From Halobaculum sp. MBLA0143 (GTDB lineage: Archaea; Halobacteriota; Halobacteria; Halobacteriales; Haloferacaceae): a stretch of DNA of 64,000 nt. The first letter of the stretch is position 1. Each line of letters starts with the position of its first letter. The translations under genes were made by a program, and so were the position numbers. Under the pieces are notes generated by a model that saw only the letters and a list, made by a program, of their open reading frames with translations, had not been told where the DNA came from and ran no database searches. Shown one piece after another: positions 151 through 8,816 of this stretch. The stretch is from contig NZ_JBGKAC010000001.1 of NCBI RefSeq assembly GCF_041361465.1, positions 1,674,001 to 1,738,000 on the forward strand. The letters are read 5' to 3'.

Positions 151-1407
151 TCAGTCGTCCGCCGTCGCGGCGGTCTCTGTGCCGTCCGCCTCGATGTCGT
201 CGGCGACCCGTTCGAACGCCGCGAGGATCACTCGTTTCGCGGCCTCACCCTCCGTCGTCCAGTGACGGGCCACGTCCAGCATGTCGTCGTAGATGTCGGG
301 CTTGCAGCCGGCGGCCTTCGGGTGACCGCCGCCGTTGACCTGCCCGGCCACCTCGTGGGCCCGTTCGAACGTCTCGCTGCCGCGGATCGACGCGCTGCCG
401 GCCGGCTTGACGATCACGGCCGCGTCGGCGCCTCGCTCGCGGAGCGTCTCCGCAACCTCGTTCTGTGAACACCGGCCGTACGTCACGCCGACCGTCCACG
501 GGCCGATCTCGTGTGTCTCCGCCCGACGGACGGCTGCGTCGATCAACGCCTCCTTCTCCTCGCGGCGAGCGTCGACGTACCCCCGGATCGGCTCCGGGAG
601 GTCGACGCCGTACGCGCCGACGACGGCCGCGTACTCCGCGGGTGAGCTCCAGAAGGAGTAGTCCGCCAGGTCGTCGCTCCGTTCGTCCTCCTTCAGCCAG
701 AGGTCGTGGTCGCGGGTGACGGCCGCCAGCGTCTCGAACCGCTCGGGGAACTCGTGGTCCAACGACCGCAGTGTCACGTCCGCGGAACACTCCTCGTCGC
801 TGTCGCCGACGACTAGCTCGATCCCGTGCTCGCGGATCGCCGCCGCCGTCTCGTCGTCCCACTGGTGGTGGTCGTACCAGGCGACCGACGACGCCCGCTC
901 GACGAGGTTCGACAGCGCCGGCTCCACGCTGCCGGCGTCGTCCGGACAGATGTCACAGACGAACACATCGACGCCCGGCTCGGCGTGTTCGGCCGCGCGC
1001 CCCAACTGCTCTCGCAGGCTGTGTGGCCCGGCCGGCAGTAGCGCGACCGTCGAGTCGGCCAACAGTCCGCCGTCGTCGTCGACGGTGACGTTGTCGGCGT
1101 CGGCCGCCAGCGCCGCCGTGTCCAGTTCGTCGGTCGTCCGGTCGTCGTCGATCCGTGCGTCACGGTACGCCTCGAACGGCGCCGGGTCGACGACGGCGTC
1201 GTACGCCTCCCGGACGAGCGCGACACACGCCAGCCCGTCGGCGTCGGAGTCCGTCACGACCACCACGTCCGCGCCCGCCACTGCCGACGCCGCCCGTTCG
1301 TCGACTCGCTCGTCGTCCAAGGAGTCGGGATAGAAGAACCCCGTCCCGGGGAGTCGTGACTTCCGGTCGAGTGAGAGTGTCGCGTCGTCGATCAGATCTT
1401 CGTCCAT
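151..1407 (-). CDS. DHH/DHHA1-family phosphoesterase
   Basis: This 418-residue protein has the RecJ-like DHH architecture. The DSDADG motif (residues 53-58) corresponds to the usual DHDADG metal site, YDHHQWDD is the DHH motif in mid-protein, and a GQVNGGGHPKAAG segment is the DHHA1 GGGH substrate-binding motif near the C-terminus. The family hydrolyses phosphodiesters in single-stranded DNA ends, nano-RNA or cyclic dinucleotides. In archaea, members of this size are usually annotated as RecJ-like exonucleases or simply DHH proteins. The ATG at 1407 is preferred over a longer reading to 1599 because the extension is Arg/Pro-rich and a TATA-like run (cgtttttcacg on the minus strand) sits about 27 bases upstream. 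The next gene starts 3 bases after its stop. Confidence 0.88.
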   Translation of the reverse strand: MDEDLIDDATLSLDRKSRLPGTGFFYPDSLDDERVDERAASAVAGADVVVVTDSDADGLACVALVREAYDAVVDPAPFEAYRDARIDDDRTTDELDTAALAADADNVTVDDDGGLLADSTVALLPAGPHSLREQLGRAAEHAEPGVDVFVCDICPDDAGSVEPALSNLVERASSVAWYDHHQWDDETAAAIREHGIELVVGDSDEECSADVTLRSLDHEFPERFETLAAVTRDHDLWLKEDERSDDLADYSFWSSPAEYAAVVGAYGVDLPEPIRGYVDARREEKEALIDAAVRRAETHEIGPWTVGVTYGRCSQNEVAETLRERGADAAVIVKPAGSASIRGSETFERAHEVAGQVNGGGHPKAAGCKPDIYDDMLDVARHWTTEGEAAKRVILAAFERVADDIEADGTETAATADD

Positions 1408-1626: not shown

Positions 1627-1776
1627 CTACTCCTGGTGGACTGCGAGGTTGCGCACGTCACCTCCACAGTCGTCACACCGGCCTGGGTTGGAGTTGGCCT
1701 CCGTCCGACCGGCACACTCGACACACTCGAACAGTCCGCCCGACGACTCGTACGGGTCGATATTCACTACTGGCAT
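1627..1776 (-). CDS. small rubrerythrin-like zinc-ribbon protein (DUF7129-like)
   Basis: A 49-residue protein starting MPVVNIDPYESSGG and carrying two CxxC knuckles (CVEC and CDDC) separated by 15 residues. This is a single rubredoxin/rubrerythrin-type zinc ribbon. Very similar short proteins are widespread in haloarchaea; I recall them as DUF7129 rubrerythrin-like domain proteins, with no established function. The ATG at 1776 is chosen over an upstream start at 1827 because a TTAACA-type promoter element lies about 27-33 bases upstream of it (around 1803-1808), which fits a leaderless transcript. Confidence 0.78.
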   Translation of the reverse strand: MPVVNIDPYESSGGLFECVECAGRTEANSNPGRCDDCGGDVRNLAVHQE

Positions 1777-1865
1777 CGTACTCAGACCTTTATCGAGATG
1801 TGTGTTAAGGATTGCCCATATACGCACTCTGACTGTATCAGGTGATTATACACATGGAAGGTAGG

Positions 1866-2681
1866 CTACGAGAGTTCTAGTGACTCTGCTATCCTGACTG
1901 CGGCGATTAACGGAAGAAGGCACCACATGACCAGGACGACAGGGGCGATCCAGCCGGCAGGAACTGGAGCTCCAAAAAACGAAACGACGAGGGTGAGGTA
2001 GCTTTTCCCCCCGAGGTACTGGAGCCCGACGAGGAACGCATTTCCGGGCGCGAGAAACAACACACCTCGCCGGAGTTCAAGTGGAAACGACAGTTCTAGG
2101 CGGCTTGCCAGCGCCACGGCGACTACATCGGGTGACACCGGAAACAGTGTATTCCAACACACGACGCCTACCACGTATAAAACGATAGCAGCGAGAAACG
2201 CGCGTCGCTGTGTATTAGCGAAGACAGAGACAGCGGTCCCTACAGCGAGCCAACTCACGGTCAACATCATGATCAAACCGAACAGCACTGCTGGCCGTCC
2301 GGCCGGGGCACTGTACACTGTCGCAAGCCCTGTGGTCACGGCAGTGAGTAGTCCAAACCCGACGCCGAGTACACCACACCGCGTCACGAACGATCCAAGA
2401 ACTACATCTCTGCGTCTCCCTGGAAGAGTGAACAACAGTCGAAGCGTTCCCGACTCTCTGTGCCCGGCAATTGACGAGACGCCAAGCAGTAGTCCGACAG
2501 CCGGGAAGAGAAGCTGTCCAACGAATAAAACGAGCCCGTAGATGCTCGAGAGCGAGAATCCAGCAATTCGGGCACCAGTCACGCCAATCAAGCATCCGCC
2601 GAACAGTCCCAGAACGAGGAGTCCAGCGCGAGAGCGCCACAACTCAACGAGGTCACGGCGGGCATACGGACGGATGTTCAC
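1866..2681 (-). CDS. ABC-2 type transporter permease of the cysteine-rich peptide module
   Basis: A 271-residue hydrophobic protein with about six membrane segments and a short cytoplasmic N-terminus (MNIRPYARRDLVELWRSR), the usual layout of ABC-2 permeases. The segment SIAGHRESGTLRLLFTLPGRR is the conserved region after the second helix that contacts the ATPase. It overlaps the ATPase gene by 4 bases (ATGA), so translation is probably coupled. Codon use and base composition are visibly more AT-rich than in the flanking genes, as in the next two genes. With the ATPase it should form a full transporter; the cysteine-rich exported protein at the head of the operon suggests a role in its maturation, export or self-immunity. 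That role is inferred from gene order only. Confidence 0.88.
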   Translation of the reverse strand: MNIRPYARRDLVELWRSRAGLLVLGLFGGCLIGVTGARIAGFSLSSIYGLVLFVGQLLFPAVGLLLGVSSIAGHRESGTLRLLFTLPGRRRDVVLGSFVTRCGVLGVGFGLLTAVTTGLATVYSAPAGRPAVLFGLIMMLTVSWLAVGTAVSVFANTQRRAFLAAIVLYVVGVVCWNTLFPVSPDVVAVALASRLELSFPLELRRGVLFLAPGNAFLVGLQYLGGKSYLTLVVSFFGAPVPAGWIAPVVLVMWCLLPLIAAVRIAESLELS

Positions 2682-3595
2682 GACTCGCCTCCGTGAACAG
2701 TCCTGTCGAACAGTGCGTCGAGTGACGCACCGTCGGTACTGAGGTCTTCAACTTCGACTTCGTTGAGAGCAGTCTCGACGGCCGTGATCCTATCGCCCGC
2801 TGTCTCACACGTCACCGTGACCCACTGTCCATCTATCTCAACCGACTGGACGCCGTCTTGTGGTGCCAGCACTGCACTGAGTGCCTCAGGACGGTTCAAA
2901 ACTCGGAATCCGACGCTCAAACTGAGTGCCCCAAGAGAGCCGTCTGCAACTGACACTGTCCTCTCGATCTGTCCATCGTGAAGAATCCCCACACGGTCGC
3001 ACATCGTCTCGACTTCTTCGAGACGGTGGCTCGATAGGAAAACGGACGTTCCGTCGTTCCTTAGCTCTGTGACGAGTTGCCGAATTTCTCTGATTCCGTC
3101 TGGGTCGAGTCCACTCGTCGGCTCGTCGAGAACCACGAGTTCCGGATCACCGACAAGTGCCATCGCTAGCCAGAGTCGCTGTTGCATCCCGGTTGAGTAC
3201 TCCGATGCCGGACGGTCGTGTGCTTCTGAATCGAGACCGACGTGCGAGAGTCGTTCAATCGGGTCGACAGCTACTCCTCGTGTTCGGGCCACAAACTCGA
3301 CATGTTCGGTACCAGTGAGGTTCGGGAATGGTGTCACTCCCTCCGGAAGCACCCCGACACGTTGGTGTATCTCGTTACGGTGTGTCTCGACATCGTACCC
3401 AAGCACTCGTGCTGTCCCACTCGTTGGTGATCGGAGTCCAAGAAGAACGTTGATCGTGGTCGACTTTCCTGCCCCATTCGGACCGAGAAAGCCGAACACC
3501 GTTCCCGACTCAACTTCGAGGTCGAGTCCGTCAAGAACGACTGTGCCGCCGAACGATTTAGAGAGATCGTTCAATTCTAGTGCAGAGGATGACAT
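2678..3595 (-). CDS. ABC transporter ATP-binding protein of the cysteine-rich peptide module
   Basis: A 305-residue ATPase with Walker A GPNGAGKS (residues 39-46), an ABC signature variant STGMQQRLW, Walker B VVLDEPTSGLDP and an H-loop SSHRLEE. The C-terminal ~85 residues are a beta-rich extension like that in CcmA/NatA-type drug- and bacteriocin-immunity ATPases. It lies 15 bases downstream of the cysteine-rich protein gene and overlaps the permease gene by 4 bases, so the three genes form one transcription unit. NatA-type pairs often protect the producer against a membrane-active peptide or export it, but no substrate can be read from the sequence. Confidence 0.93.
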   Translation of the reverse strand: MSSSALELNDLSKSFGGTVVLDGLDLEVESGTVFGFLGPNGAGKSTTINVLLGLRSPTSGTARVLGYDVETHRNEIHQRVGVLPEGVTPFPNLTGTEHVEFVARTRGVAVDPIERLSHVGLDSEAHDRPASEYSTGMQQRLWLAMALVGDPELVVLDEPTSGLDPDGIREIRQLVTELRNDGTSVFLSSHRLEEVETMCDRVGILHDGQIERTVSVADGSLGALSLSVGFRVLNRPEALSAVLAPQDGVQSVEIDGQWVTVTCETAGDRITAVETALNEVEVEDLSTDGASLDALFDRTVHGGES

Positions 3596-3610
3596 TAGTA
3601 AGGGAGGGGG

Positions 3611-4255
3611 CTAGCAGTACGAGCTACAGAGGAAGCCACAGTCACAACAGACGCAACTACAGTCACACTGGTTACAGTACTGGAGACAGTCGCCTGTGTA
3701 CGGATCCTCGGTACAGCAGACCGTGTTGCAGTCGCAGTCCTGACAGTGCCCTGGGTCGAGACAGCCTTGTGGTTCCACATCCGGCATACTGCCGTACGTC
3801 TTGAGGCTTCCCTCCCCCAGAGGTTCACCGTCTTCGGTAGGATTCAACACAGCGTGTGCTGCGTCCATCTCTGGGAACACCGACACGGAGAGATAGCCTC
3901 GTTCAACCTTCCGGAACACCTTGATCCTCGGCGTGAACTGAGTGTTGAACTGAGCCACCGTGACGAGTTCTCCTTCACCGTCAGCGGGTTCACTCAGTTC
4001 CGTCAGGTTGTTGACTCGGCCGTTGGGTAGGACTCCATCGTCAGCGAGTTCGTTCAGTAGTTCCGTCTGTTCGTGTACAGCACGACTCACACGTCTTGGG
4101 TCCCTGAACTCTGCAGTGAGTTCTCGTTTCCGAGCGTCGGTCGGTTCTGTGTCTGACTTCTTTGCTGCTGCAGTGCCGAGTCCAGCCACACCGACAGCCG
4201 CCGCAGCGCCCTGTAGTACTGCTCTTCTCCTCGGACCGTCTTCCGTTTCTGACAT
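3611..4255 (-). CDS. Tat-exported protein with a 16-cysteine C-terminal domain (candidate halocin-like precursor)
   Basis: A 214-residue protein. Residues 1-31 form a Tat signal (RRRAVLQG followed by an Ala/Gly-rich helix ending TAAAKK). Residues 32-164 form a charged region with no cysteine at all. The last 50 residues hold 16 cysteines at 165, 171, 174, 176, 180, 181, 190, 194, 197, 199, 201, 203, 204, 206, 210 and 214, the last being the C-terminal residue. Tat leader, Cys-free middle and Cys-rich tail is the layout of halocin C8 precursors, in which the tail is the active peptide and the middle part is the immunity protein. The tail here is more hydrophilic and richer in CxC/CC than halocin C8, so a metal-binding role is also possible. 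The ATG at 4255 is preferred over a TTG 15 bases upstream. The function is not known. Confidence 0.82.
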   Translation of the reverse strand: MSETEDGPRRRAVLQGAAAAVGVAGLGTAAAKKSDTEPTDARKRELTAEFRDPRRVSRAVHEQTELLNELADDGVLPNGRVNNLTELSEPADGEGELVTVAQFNTQFTPRIKVFRKVERGYLSVSVFPEMDAAHAVLNPTEDGEPLGEGSLKTYGSMPDVEPQGCLDPGHCQDCDCNTVCCTEDPYTGDCLQYCNQCDCSCVCCDCGFLCSSYC

Positions 4256-4320
4256 CGATTTACACGACAACGAGAAGATTGTTAACTTTTTTGTTTATTT
4301 TTGTCTAGAACTTTTGCTGG
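4256..4320 (-). promoter_or_regulatory. AT-rich promoter region of the cysteine-rich peptide operon
   Basis: The 65 bases upstream of the ATG are strikingly AT-rich, with an aaaataaacaaaaaag run on the minus strand at about 4280-4296. An archaeal TATA element is expected here, but no single best match can be chosen by eye. Confidence 0.45.
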
Positions 4321-5454
4321 TTATGACAAGATCTCGTTCTCAGTCAGCTCCACCGCCTTCTGTGCGGCGCCGACGCTCGTGAGGTAGCCCGCGCCGACGG
4401 TCGTCTTGGCCGCCTTCGCGGCCGCCCCGGTGAGCACGGTCGGCCCCAGCTGTGCGACGGCACCGTCGCCGACGGAGACGAGCCAGCCGGGTACGTCGAA
4501 GCGGTAGCGGGCGAGTCGTGGGCTGAACCCGTCCGTGCCGCCGTCGACGAGCCGTTCGAGGTTCGTCGCCGCCGTCTTCGCCTCTCGAATCGCCGCCGAG
4601 GCGCTGGCGGGCACCGCCTCCCCGTCGGCGCCGACCACGCGAGCGGCGTCACCCACCGCCAGTGTGCGATCCGTCAGGCGGAGGTCCGCCTGCACGACCG
4701 GGCGGTCGCCGTCGGCGGCCGGTTGGCCGGCGATTCCACCGGTCCACACGAGCGTGTCGGCCGAGAGGTCGCGCCCGTCCGTGACCACCTCCCCGTCGCC
4801 GACGGCGGTGACGGTCGTGTCCGTCCGGATCTCGATCCCACGGTCTACGAGCGCCTCCCGCACGGCCCGGCGGAAGTTCGCGGGGAAGTTCGGCGCGACC
4901 GTCTCCAGCTGCTCGACGAGCGTCACCGACACGTCCTCCGGGACGGTGGCTCCCTCCTCGCGGGCGAGCGCGGCGATCTCGCCGGCGACCTGGACCCCCG
5001 AGAGGCCGGCGCCGCCGACCACTACGTCGCCGCCGTCGGCGATCGTGTCGAGCGCGTCCTCGCGGATCGCCGCCGCGTCTTCGAGCGTCTTCAACGGGTG
5101 GGCGTGTTCGCGGAGTCCGTCGATCCCGTAGTAGGCCGTGTCGGAGCCGAACGCGACGGCGCCGTAGTCGTACTGGAGCGTGTCGCCGGACGCGAGCTCG
5201 ACGTGGCCCGTCTCCGGGTCGAAGGAGTCGACGGGGTCGGTGACGATCTCCGCGCGGTCCAGCACGTCCGCGAGCGGCACCCGGACGGCCTCGGCGACCG
5301 CCGGGCGACGGACCGCACGGTGGATCTCGTGTGTCAGGACGTGGTCGGGCCCGTCGTCGACGACGGTCAGGTCCACGTCCGGCGGGAGCGACCGTTCGAG
5401 TCTCCGCGCGACGCCGAGCCCGGCGTAGCCGGCACCCAGGACGGCAACGTGCAT
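4321..5454 (-). CDS. NAD(P)/FAD-dependent oxidoreductase, type II NADH dehydrogenase-like
   Basis: A 377-residue flavoprotein of the pyridine nucleotide-disulfide family. The N-terminal MHVAVLGAGYAGLGVARRL is the FAD Rossmann motif. GGDVVVGGAGLSGVQVAGEI in mid-protein is the second, NAD(P)H-binding, dinucleotide motif. A TLAVGDAARV segment near the C-terminus is the conserved flavin-binding region. The absence of a redox CxxxxC pair and the C-terminal amphipathic stretch favour the NDH-2 branch, which passes electrons from NADH to menaquinone at the membrane without pumping protons. The start at 5454 is the first ATG adjoining the Rossmann strand. It reads toward the cysteine-rich module but has normal high GC, so it marks the edge of that module. 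Confidence 0.86.
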   Translation of the reverse strand: MHVAVLGAGYAGLGVARRLERSLPPDVDLTVVDDGPDHVLTHEIHRAVRRPAVAEAVRVPLADVLDRAEIVTDPVDSFDPETGHVELASGDTLQYDYGAVAFGSDTAYYGIDGLREHAHPLKTLEDAAAIREDALDTIADGGDVVVGGAGLSGVQVAGEIAALAREEGATVPEDVSVTLVEQLETVAPNFPANFRRAVREALVDRGIEIRTDTTVTAVGDGEVVTDGRDLSADTLVWTGGIAGQPAADGDRPVVQADLRLTDRTLAVGDAARVVGADGEAVPASASAAIREAKTAATNLERLVDGGTDGFSPRLARYRFDVPGWLVSVGDGAVAQLGPTVLTGAAAKAAKTTVGAGYLTSVGAAQKAVELTENEILS

Positions 5455-5503: not shown

Positions 5504-6508
5504 TCAGAACAACGCGTCGTCGACGGTTCGCGCGGGACCACCGACCTCCCAGACGTCCGTCTCCACACCCACCTCGCCGATCCGGTCGGCCACCCGGTCG
5601 GCGTGGTCGGCCGTCGTGTTGACGTAGACGCTCGCGCCCGTGTCCGTCGAGAAGTACACCGGCACGTCCTCGTCGGTCCGGAGCTCTCGGACGGCGTTGA
5701 ACACCGCGATCGTCTCCGGCTGCCAGTACACCCACCCCGCCGGCCCGGTCATCGTCGTCGCCGCCAGCGACAGCGAGTCGTGTTCCGCGATCTCGAACGT
5801 CCGGTGGAACTCGCCGTCCCGGAGCGCGTCGCGCGCCTCGGCGAGTTGGTCCTGAACGTGCGCCCGTCTGGCGTCGAACATGTGGCTGTCCGCGGCCTCG
5901 CGGTGGGCCGCCTCCGTCTCTTTGTACGACGGAACGAGCGCCGTGACGATCCGGAGATCCTCCTCCAGGTCGAACGGCTCCCCGTCCAGTTCGCCGGTGC
6001 CGGCCTCGATCCGCTCCGAGCGGCTGTCGTGGTCGTTCAGTCCCGTGTGGAGGTCCGAGTACGCACCCGTCACCGCCCGGGCGGCCGACGACGACCCGCG
6101 GCGGGCGAACGCCGACACCTCCGGTCGGGTCAGATCCAAGCCAGCCGCCTCGCAGGCGGCGTACGCCAGCGCCGCGAAGCCGGAGGCCGACGACCCGAAG
6201 CCGACGTTCGACGGGAAGGAGTTCGCCGACTCCACCCGGACGGCGTGGTCGAACCCCGCGTGTTCGCGGATCGCGTCGACGACGTTGTCGATCCGCTCTG
6301 CGCCGCGCCCCTCGGCCGGCTCCCCGTCGATCAGGTAGGTGTCCTCGCTCGCGTCCGGCTCCCACGCCACCGTGGTCGTCGTGTTCGACGGCGCCGTGCA
6401 GACGCTGATCGAGTCGTGGTACGGGTGGCGCCCCTCCGTCTCCCGGAGCCCGTGGTACTTCACGAGCCCCTGAATCGGGTGGGCCCTGGCAGTCGCCTTG
6501 CCTGTCAT
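5504..6508 (-). CDS. mvaD: phosphomevalonate decarboxylase (haloarchaeal MvaD)
   Basis: A 334-residue GHMP-superfamily protein. VESANSFPSNVGFGSSASG is the glycine/serine-rich phosphate loop of diphosphomevalonate decarboxylases. TGAYSDLHTGLND and a C-terminal PVYFSTDTGASVYVNT (the GAGPNV-equivalent motif) also fit the family. Haloarchaeal members are known to act on mevalonate 5-phosphate, giving isopentenyl phosphate for the archaeal branch of the mevalonate pathway that feeds ether-lipid synthesis. I infer that specificity from the lineage; it is not visible in the residues. A TATA-like gcataacccg lies about 27 bases upstream of the ATG, consistent with a leaderless mRNA. Confidence 0.9.
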   Translation of the reverse strand: MTGKATARAHPIQGLVKYHGLRETEGRHPYHDSISVCTAPSNTTTTVAWEPDASEDTYLIDGEPAEGRGAERIDNVVDAIREHAGFDHAVRVESANSFPSNVGFGSSASGFAALAYAACEAAGLDLTRPEVSAFARRGSSSAARAVTGAYSDLHTGLNDHDSRSERIEAGTGELDGEPFDLEEDLRIVTALVPSYKETEAAHREAADSHMFDARRAHVQDQLAEARDALRDGEFHRTFEIAEHDSLSLAATTMTGPAGWVYWQPETIAVFNAVRELRTDEDVPVYFSTDTGASVYVNTTADHADRVADRIGEVGVETDVWEVGGPARTVDDALF

Positions 6509-8435: not shown

Positions 8436-8816
8436 GTGACACGCCTCGCGCTCGTCGCCCACGACGACGAGAAGCCGGAGATGATCGACTTCGTCGAGAG
8501 TCACGAGGAGACACTCGCCGCGTTCGACCTCGTCGGGACCGGAACGACCGGGCGACGGATCACCGAGGAGACGAACCTGACCGTCGAGCGCAAGGAGAGC
8601 GGGCCACACGGCGGGGACCTCCAGTTGGGATCCGAGATCGCCGCCGGGACGCTGGACGCGGTGATCTTCCTCCGAGATCCGATGACTGCCCAGCCACACG
8701 AGCCGGACATCAGCGCACTGTTGCGGATCTGTGACCTGAACGACGTGCCGCTGGCGACGACACGCCAGTCGGCGGAGTACGTACTCGACGGGCTGGCGCG
8801 CGACGCCGGCGTCTGA
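8436..8816 (+). CDS. mgsA: methylglyoxal synthase
   Basis: A 126-residue protein with the whole MgsA signature: [12 protein letters not shown] at the N-terminus, GTGTTGRRI phosphate-binding loop, [13 protein letters not shown], and [20 protein letters not shown] with the catalytic Asp and His. The enzyme converts dihydroxyacetone phosphate to methylglyoxal and phosphate, a bypass of lower glycolysis when phosphate is short. The GTG at 8436 gives the usual family length, and a T-rich gctttttgcc box sits about 25-31 bases upstream, fitting a leaderless message. The glycerol genes at 39.5-43.7 kb produce the same substrate, but they are far away and no direct link can be claimed. Confidence 0.93.

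Follow-up and report, generated by a model that had tools for sequence, protein, structure and literature searches.

An AT-rich islet in the archaeon Halobaculum sp. MBLA0143 carries a cassette of three genes, encoding a cysteine-rich protein with a Tat leader, a NatA-type ATPase and an ABC-2 permease. It lies at ~1862-4320 of the window, i.e. the whole stretch of 64,000 nucleotides that was analysed. The first protein belongs to a family of precursors found across haloarchaea, which resembles a second type of archaeal antimicrobial-peptide precursor alongside that of halocin C8. On balance we favour the view that these are preproproteins resembling that of halocin C8, in which a Tat leader and a companion domain precede a releasable, disulfide-rich antagonistic peptide, with the ABC pair providing self-protection where it is present.

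All three genes of the cassette are on the minus strand. The precursor gene (3611-4255, ATG start, 214 aa) is followed after a gap of 15 bases by the ATPase gene (2678-3595, 305 aa; ABC_tran, PF00005, E 2.6e-28, Pfam), and this overlaps by 4 bases the permease gene (1866-2681, GTG start, 271 aa; ABC2_membrane_2, PF12679, E 2e-17, Pfam). Gene order and spacing are thus as given in the first-pass annotation, and they recur in a second cassette described below. Its claim of a base composition unlike that of the flanks is also borne out, the GC content being ~0.54-0.59 inside the islet and ~0.70-0.75 on either side. The islet is an insertion between the gene for an NADH-dehydrogenase-like (NDH) flavoprotein (4321-5451, minus strand) and a small zinc-ribbon gene (1627-1776, minus strand), because six relatives (G002, G034, G007, G021, G018 and G001) keep these two markers of the empty site side by side, the NDH homologue being followed by the zinc-ribbon gene within ~0.1-0.2 kb. 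The limits of the islet were taken from the drop in GC and from DNA alignment of the NDH gene end; the left boundary was read by eye, the zinc-ribbon gene being conserved on its promoter side up to ~1861. Short direct repeats at the ends look like chance.

In a distant relative (L017, G117:C2, 4180-6870 and 8101-10303) another precursor and a divergent NatA/ABC-2 pair lie close to homologues of two genes from the flanks of the islet in the window, those for NDH and mevalonate decarboxylase, and this neighbourhood is possibly an insertion hot spot. At 11-1599 of the window, both strands carry long open frames that run antisense to each other. These look like an effect of GC content only, and the frame at 151-1407 (minus strand) is likely to be the real gene among them, resembling by eye a DHH-type phosphoesterase.

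The Tat leader of the precursor (residues ~1-32; 4160-4255, minus strand, as are the positions that follow) contains the motif RRRAVLQG and lacks a lipobox cysteine. It scores 14.0 bits against TIGR01409, for which the cut-off is 16.7; the twin-arginine motif with its hydrophobic stretch is present, and the two arginine residues are found in 73 of 73 members of the family. A central domain (residues ~40-155; 3791-4138) is joined through the sequence MPDVEPQG (residues 157-164; 3764-3787), which stands where the family has its junction motif D-D-D-V-T-T-Q, to a C-terminal tail of 50 residues (165-214; 3614-3763) that is the proposed released peptide. The tail contains 16 cysteine residues, the last of them C-terminal, and there are none in residues 1-164. 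The leader and the cysteine-rich end can be read directly from the gene as first described. The 130 cysteine-free residues of that description hold approximately for the region after the leader, the whole cysteine-free stretch being 164 residues when the leader is included. AlphaFold run on the single sequence predicts two helices and then three strands for the central domain, at low confidence (pLDDT 42). Neither Pfam nor NCBIfam has a model for the precursor or its family, and comparison with solved structures gave only weak matches of the Tat-leader type.

Of 394 haloarchaeal genomes, no fewer than 46 encode proteins matched by a profile of leader plus central domain, with the tail removed (profile A2, E <= 1e-7); nine candidates were scored per genome, so that this count is a floor. 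There are up to nine copies in one genome (G095). Matches at E ~1e-4, mostly to the Tat leader only, were left uncounted. When the Tat part is left out, a model built on the central domain still picks up each of the 73 proteins collected as members, with the best shuffled control at E 0.13, and the homology of the family is therefore not based on the leader. The consensus comprises a helical segment VRxAVxEHAxDLLxELADEGxL and a strand region TaxIxIxRxTDDGxLxLxVQPExDRAYAxVEP, followed by the tail. Clustered as whole proteins at 50% identity the members fall into 51 groups; this replaced BLAST clustering of the tails alone, which is unreliable because of their cysteine composition. In two pairs (L067/L075 and L068/L077) the tails are more alike (60-71%) than the central domains (34-41%), a comparison in which cysteine inflates the identity of the tails. 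Tails and chassis may have been exchanged between members.

When 394 genomes were sampled from the phylum, the family was seen only within the order of the host. Scans of genome contigs and viral contigs found no relatives, nor did tblastn with the window protein against phages and plasmids. Apart from those linked to a transporter, the members are solo genes beside varied and unrelated housekeeping genes, multicopy and patchy in distribution. The GC content of member genes is below that of their flanks by 7 points on average, and is the lower of the two in 66 of the 73. Clustering of the neighbours revealed no conserved partner, including any regulator or sensor, and no recurrent gene of metal homeostasis. 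We found no paper describing the family as such in the literature searched. A survey of archaeal conflict systems by Makarova et al. (mBio, 2019) is said to expand halocin C8 and to list further candidate archaeocins, so that some of these proteins may already appear there as hypothetical candidates.

The number of cysteine residues is even in every one of the 73 members, over a range of 6 to 22. By comparison, other called proteins from the same loci with at least six cysteine residues divide into 29 with an even and 19 with an odd number. The members were picked through the central domain, so the parity is not biased by the choice of tail. The tails are 23% cysteine and 2% histidine plus methionine, with a mean net charge of -5.3. 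Even parity points to full disulfide pairing and would be hard to explain otherwise; it disfavours a thiolate metal cluster.

A motif learned by expectation maximization (EM) from this family alone, D-D-D-V-T/S-T/I/P-Q or, more loosely, D-D-x-V-T/S-x-Q, lies directly before the first cysteine of the tail. The motif trained in this way scores higher at the junctions of 14 precursors of the halocin C8 type than elsewhere in the same proteins (p 2.7e-7, which is approximate because the scored windows overlap). Its score there also exceeds that in control proteins, with 5 of the 14 junctions against 2.8% of 1,588 control windows (binomial p 2.7e-5). This enrichment lends support to the architecture like that of halocin C8 that had been suggested for the window protein. 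The motif also occurs elsewhere at a low rate, and part of the signal could come from acidic linkers. Judged by eye, the junction of the window clade (DVEPQGC) is a weak version.

From these features we infer cleavage, disulfide formation, killing and the role of the ABC pair as follows. The Tat pathway would export the precursor in a folded state, with up to eight disulfides holding the tail of 50 residues. An extracellular protease would then cut at the acidic/Thr-Gln junction and so free the tail. The released peptide would have neighbouring cells as its target, its likeliest role being that of an antagonist in the manner of a bacteriocin. The cysteine-free central domain, with its predicted helix-loop-helix and strands, might keep the tail inactive, guide its folding or give immunity, the part that HalI plays for halocin C8. 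The NatA/ABC-2 pair would more likely be a pump for self-protection than the exporter.

What counts against an antagonist is that a dedicated immunity gene is not seen beside most members. The absence of both transporter and immunity gene from most loci would suit a secreted disulfide-rich peptide used in signalling or surface recognition (kin recognition, mating or a virus-receptor decoy), for which the ABC pair would act in sensing or uptake. Several paralogues per genome with differing tails agree with such a role, and an even number of cysteine residues and variable tails would suit any secreted disulfide scaffold. Yet no regulator or sensor is conserved beside the members, and the junction motif and layout are shared with the precursor of a known antimicrobial. 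We regard this alternative as possible and rather less likely.

The first-pass annotation had also raised a secreted metal-binding protein. The tail would then resemble metallothionein, its thiolates holding Cu, Zn or Hg while the ABC pair exported the metal or its chelate, and the cysteine content of the tails and their CxC, CC and CxxC clusters could be read in this way. However, thiolate clusters do not need the parity seen throughout the family, histidine and methionine are scarce in the tails, Pfam gives no match to a metallothionein family, and Tat export leads to the oxidising exterior. The neighbours of the members are housekeeping genes, with no recurrent gene of metal homeostasis. 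Since the cysteine number is invariably even, disulfides are preferred, and metal binding appears improbable.

A transporter of its own, which had been taken as a defining feature of the system, is not a property of the family as a whole. Close homologues of NatA occur no more than 1.5 kb away from 5 of the 73 members, compared with none of 118 control genes (p 0.007). These five rank 3, 4, 7, 9 and 10 by profile score, and are thus all among the ten closest; on the favoured reading the window-type clade gained the ABC pair. All three genes recur together in a second full cassette, and the 68 members outside these five have no close NatA nearby. Within the window clade the ABC pair probably serves self-protection. 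This is likelier than export, because the Tat pathway already exports the precursor and because the ATPase has no peptidase domain detectable with Pfam. The tight operon of three genes in two cassettes might suggest that the pair exports or processes the tail, as in double-glycine bacteriocins; in view of the missing peptidase domain, the precursor's own Tat leader and the 68 members without a close NatA, we consider this very improbable.

The second cassette, at G000:C1:415.7-418.1 kb in the genome of the window, has the same order and spacing. Its precursor, NatA and permease are 59%, 53% and 37% identical to those of the window. The window permease is closest to its counterpart there (37%), and the homologues that follow are generic (~30%). 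Of 30 permease loci fetched, the window's own is the only one with a cysteine-rich Tat gene alongside; the generic ABC-2 homologues in other genomes have none. This repetition of genes and spacing, together with the presence of the central domain in all 73 related proteins, indicates that the layout is not due to chance. At the window and in the second cassette the precursor, NatA and permease are a unit. The same genome also contains a more divergent cysteine-rich Tat gene (L021) with a divergently transcribed NatA neighbour.

A cassette related to that of the window in another genome (L065, G224:C5) comprises two NatA/ABC-2 pairs and a precursor with 16 cysteine residues. Around it the 3' end of the dihydrolipoamide dehydrogenase gene is duplicated over 239 bases at 93% identity, and there is a third piece of 35 bases (the copies and pieces lie at 2886-2920, 5759-5997 and 8455-8693). 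It is as if insertions at this locus had used the end of that gene repeatedly. The dihydrolipoamide dehydrogenase gene also adjoins family members in L016 and L097. The duplicated 3' ends, the insertion and the low GC would agree with a mobile element carrying a precursor and an ABC pair that are functionally unrelated, but the second cassette keeps order and spacing and ABC pairs adjoin precursors in other genomes too, in differing layouts, so we give this little credence.

We consider it an evenly balanced question whether the family forms a large haloarchaeal class of the kind 'chassis plus warhead', in which one conserved export and companion domain carries many different disulfide-rich peptides, several in each genome, on small mobile islets, with one clade recruiting an ABC pump for self-protection. 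The genes of only a very small number of archaeal antimicrobial peptides are known, though halocin activity is widespread. If the proposal is correct, a family present in at least 12% of the sampled haloarchaeal genomes would provide many concrete peptides with which to test haloarchaeal antagonism. Tails with up to 22 cysteine residues (possibly 11 disulfides) in ~70 residues would be very disulfide-dense natural scaffolds exported via the Tat pathway, and orphan NatA/ABC-2 pairs would gain a testable role.

Several known systems share parts of this arrangement. HFX_0892 (HmHapP) of Haloferax mediterranei is by its description an antagonistic precursor that is secreted and then activated outside the cell by a serine protease; it differs in that the active part is an N-terminal helical fragment, and a cysteine-rich tail is not described (PMC12893001). 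The archaeal lanthipeptides (archalans, PMC10105419) are ribosomal, cysteine-containing haloarchaeal antagonists, but they need a LanM enzyme. No LanM was seen among the three genes of the cassette or in its flanks, which look like housekeeping genes. Archaeal lanthipeptides are not known to be Tat exported. The lantibiotic-protection (TIGR03740) and drrA (TIGR01188) transporters are similar in pairing an ATPase and an ABC-2 permease beside the gene for a toxic product; however, the window ATPase scores below the curated cut-offs of both models (175.5 bits for a cut-off of 309.75, and 211.9 bits for one of 312.45) and lantibiotic genes are absent.

The precursor of halocin C8 (ProC8, HalI-HalC8; TIGR04449) is the closest in layout. 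This protein of 283 aa is exported by the Tat pathway and matured into HalI and a halocin of 76 aa, and work cited in the same paper has HalI beginning with a helix-loop-helix (PMC11509114); in the low-confidence model the middle domain of the window protein also opens with two helices. All 14 precursors of this type that we read have a Tat leader, a cysteine-free middle and an even number of cysteine residues (10 or 12) at the end, and, as in our family, the genes mostly stand alone and the junction motif is shared. The central domain of the family aligns with the HalI region colinearly over 89 columns, at an hhalign probability of 4.9% and E 0.008, which falls short of significance. The family tails are far more variable (6-22 cysteine residues) and acidic, unlike the hydrophobic character ascribed to halocins (PMC11509114), and the window clade differs in its adjoining ABC pair. 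The halocin C8 domain model (halocin_C8_dom, TIGR04449) matches neither the window precursor nor its relatives at E <= 1, and they are therefore not placed in that family. The best reading of the sequences is that the window precursor resembles that of halocin C8 in layout rather than as a demonstrated member of its family. The genome of the window also encodes a halocin C8-type precursor that does match TIGR04449, with 12 cysteine residues (G000:C1:330049-330258; L033, L204), and the strain may therefore make several kinds of cysteine-rich peptide.
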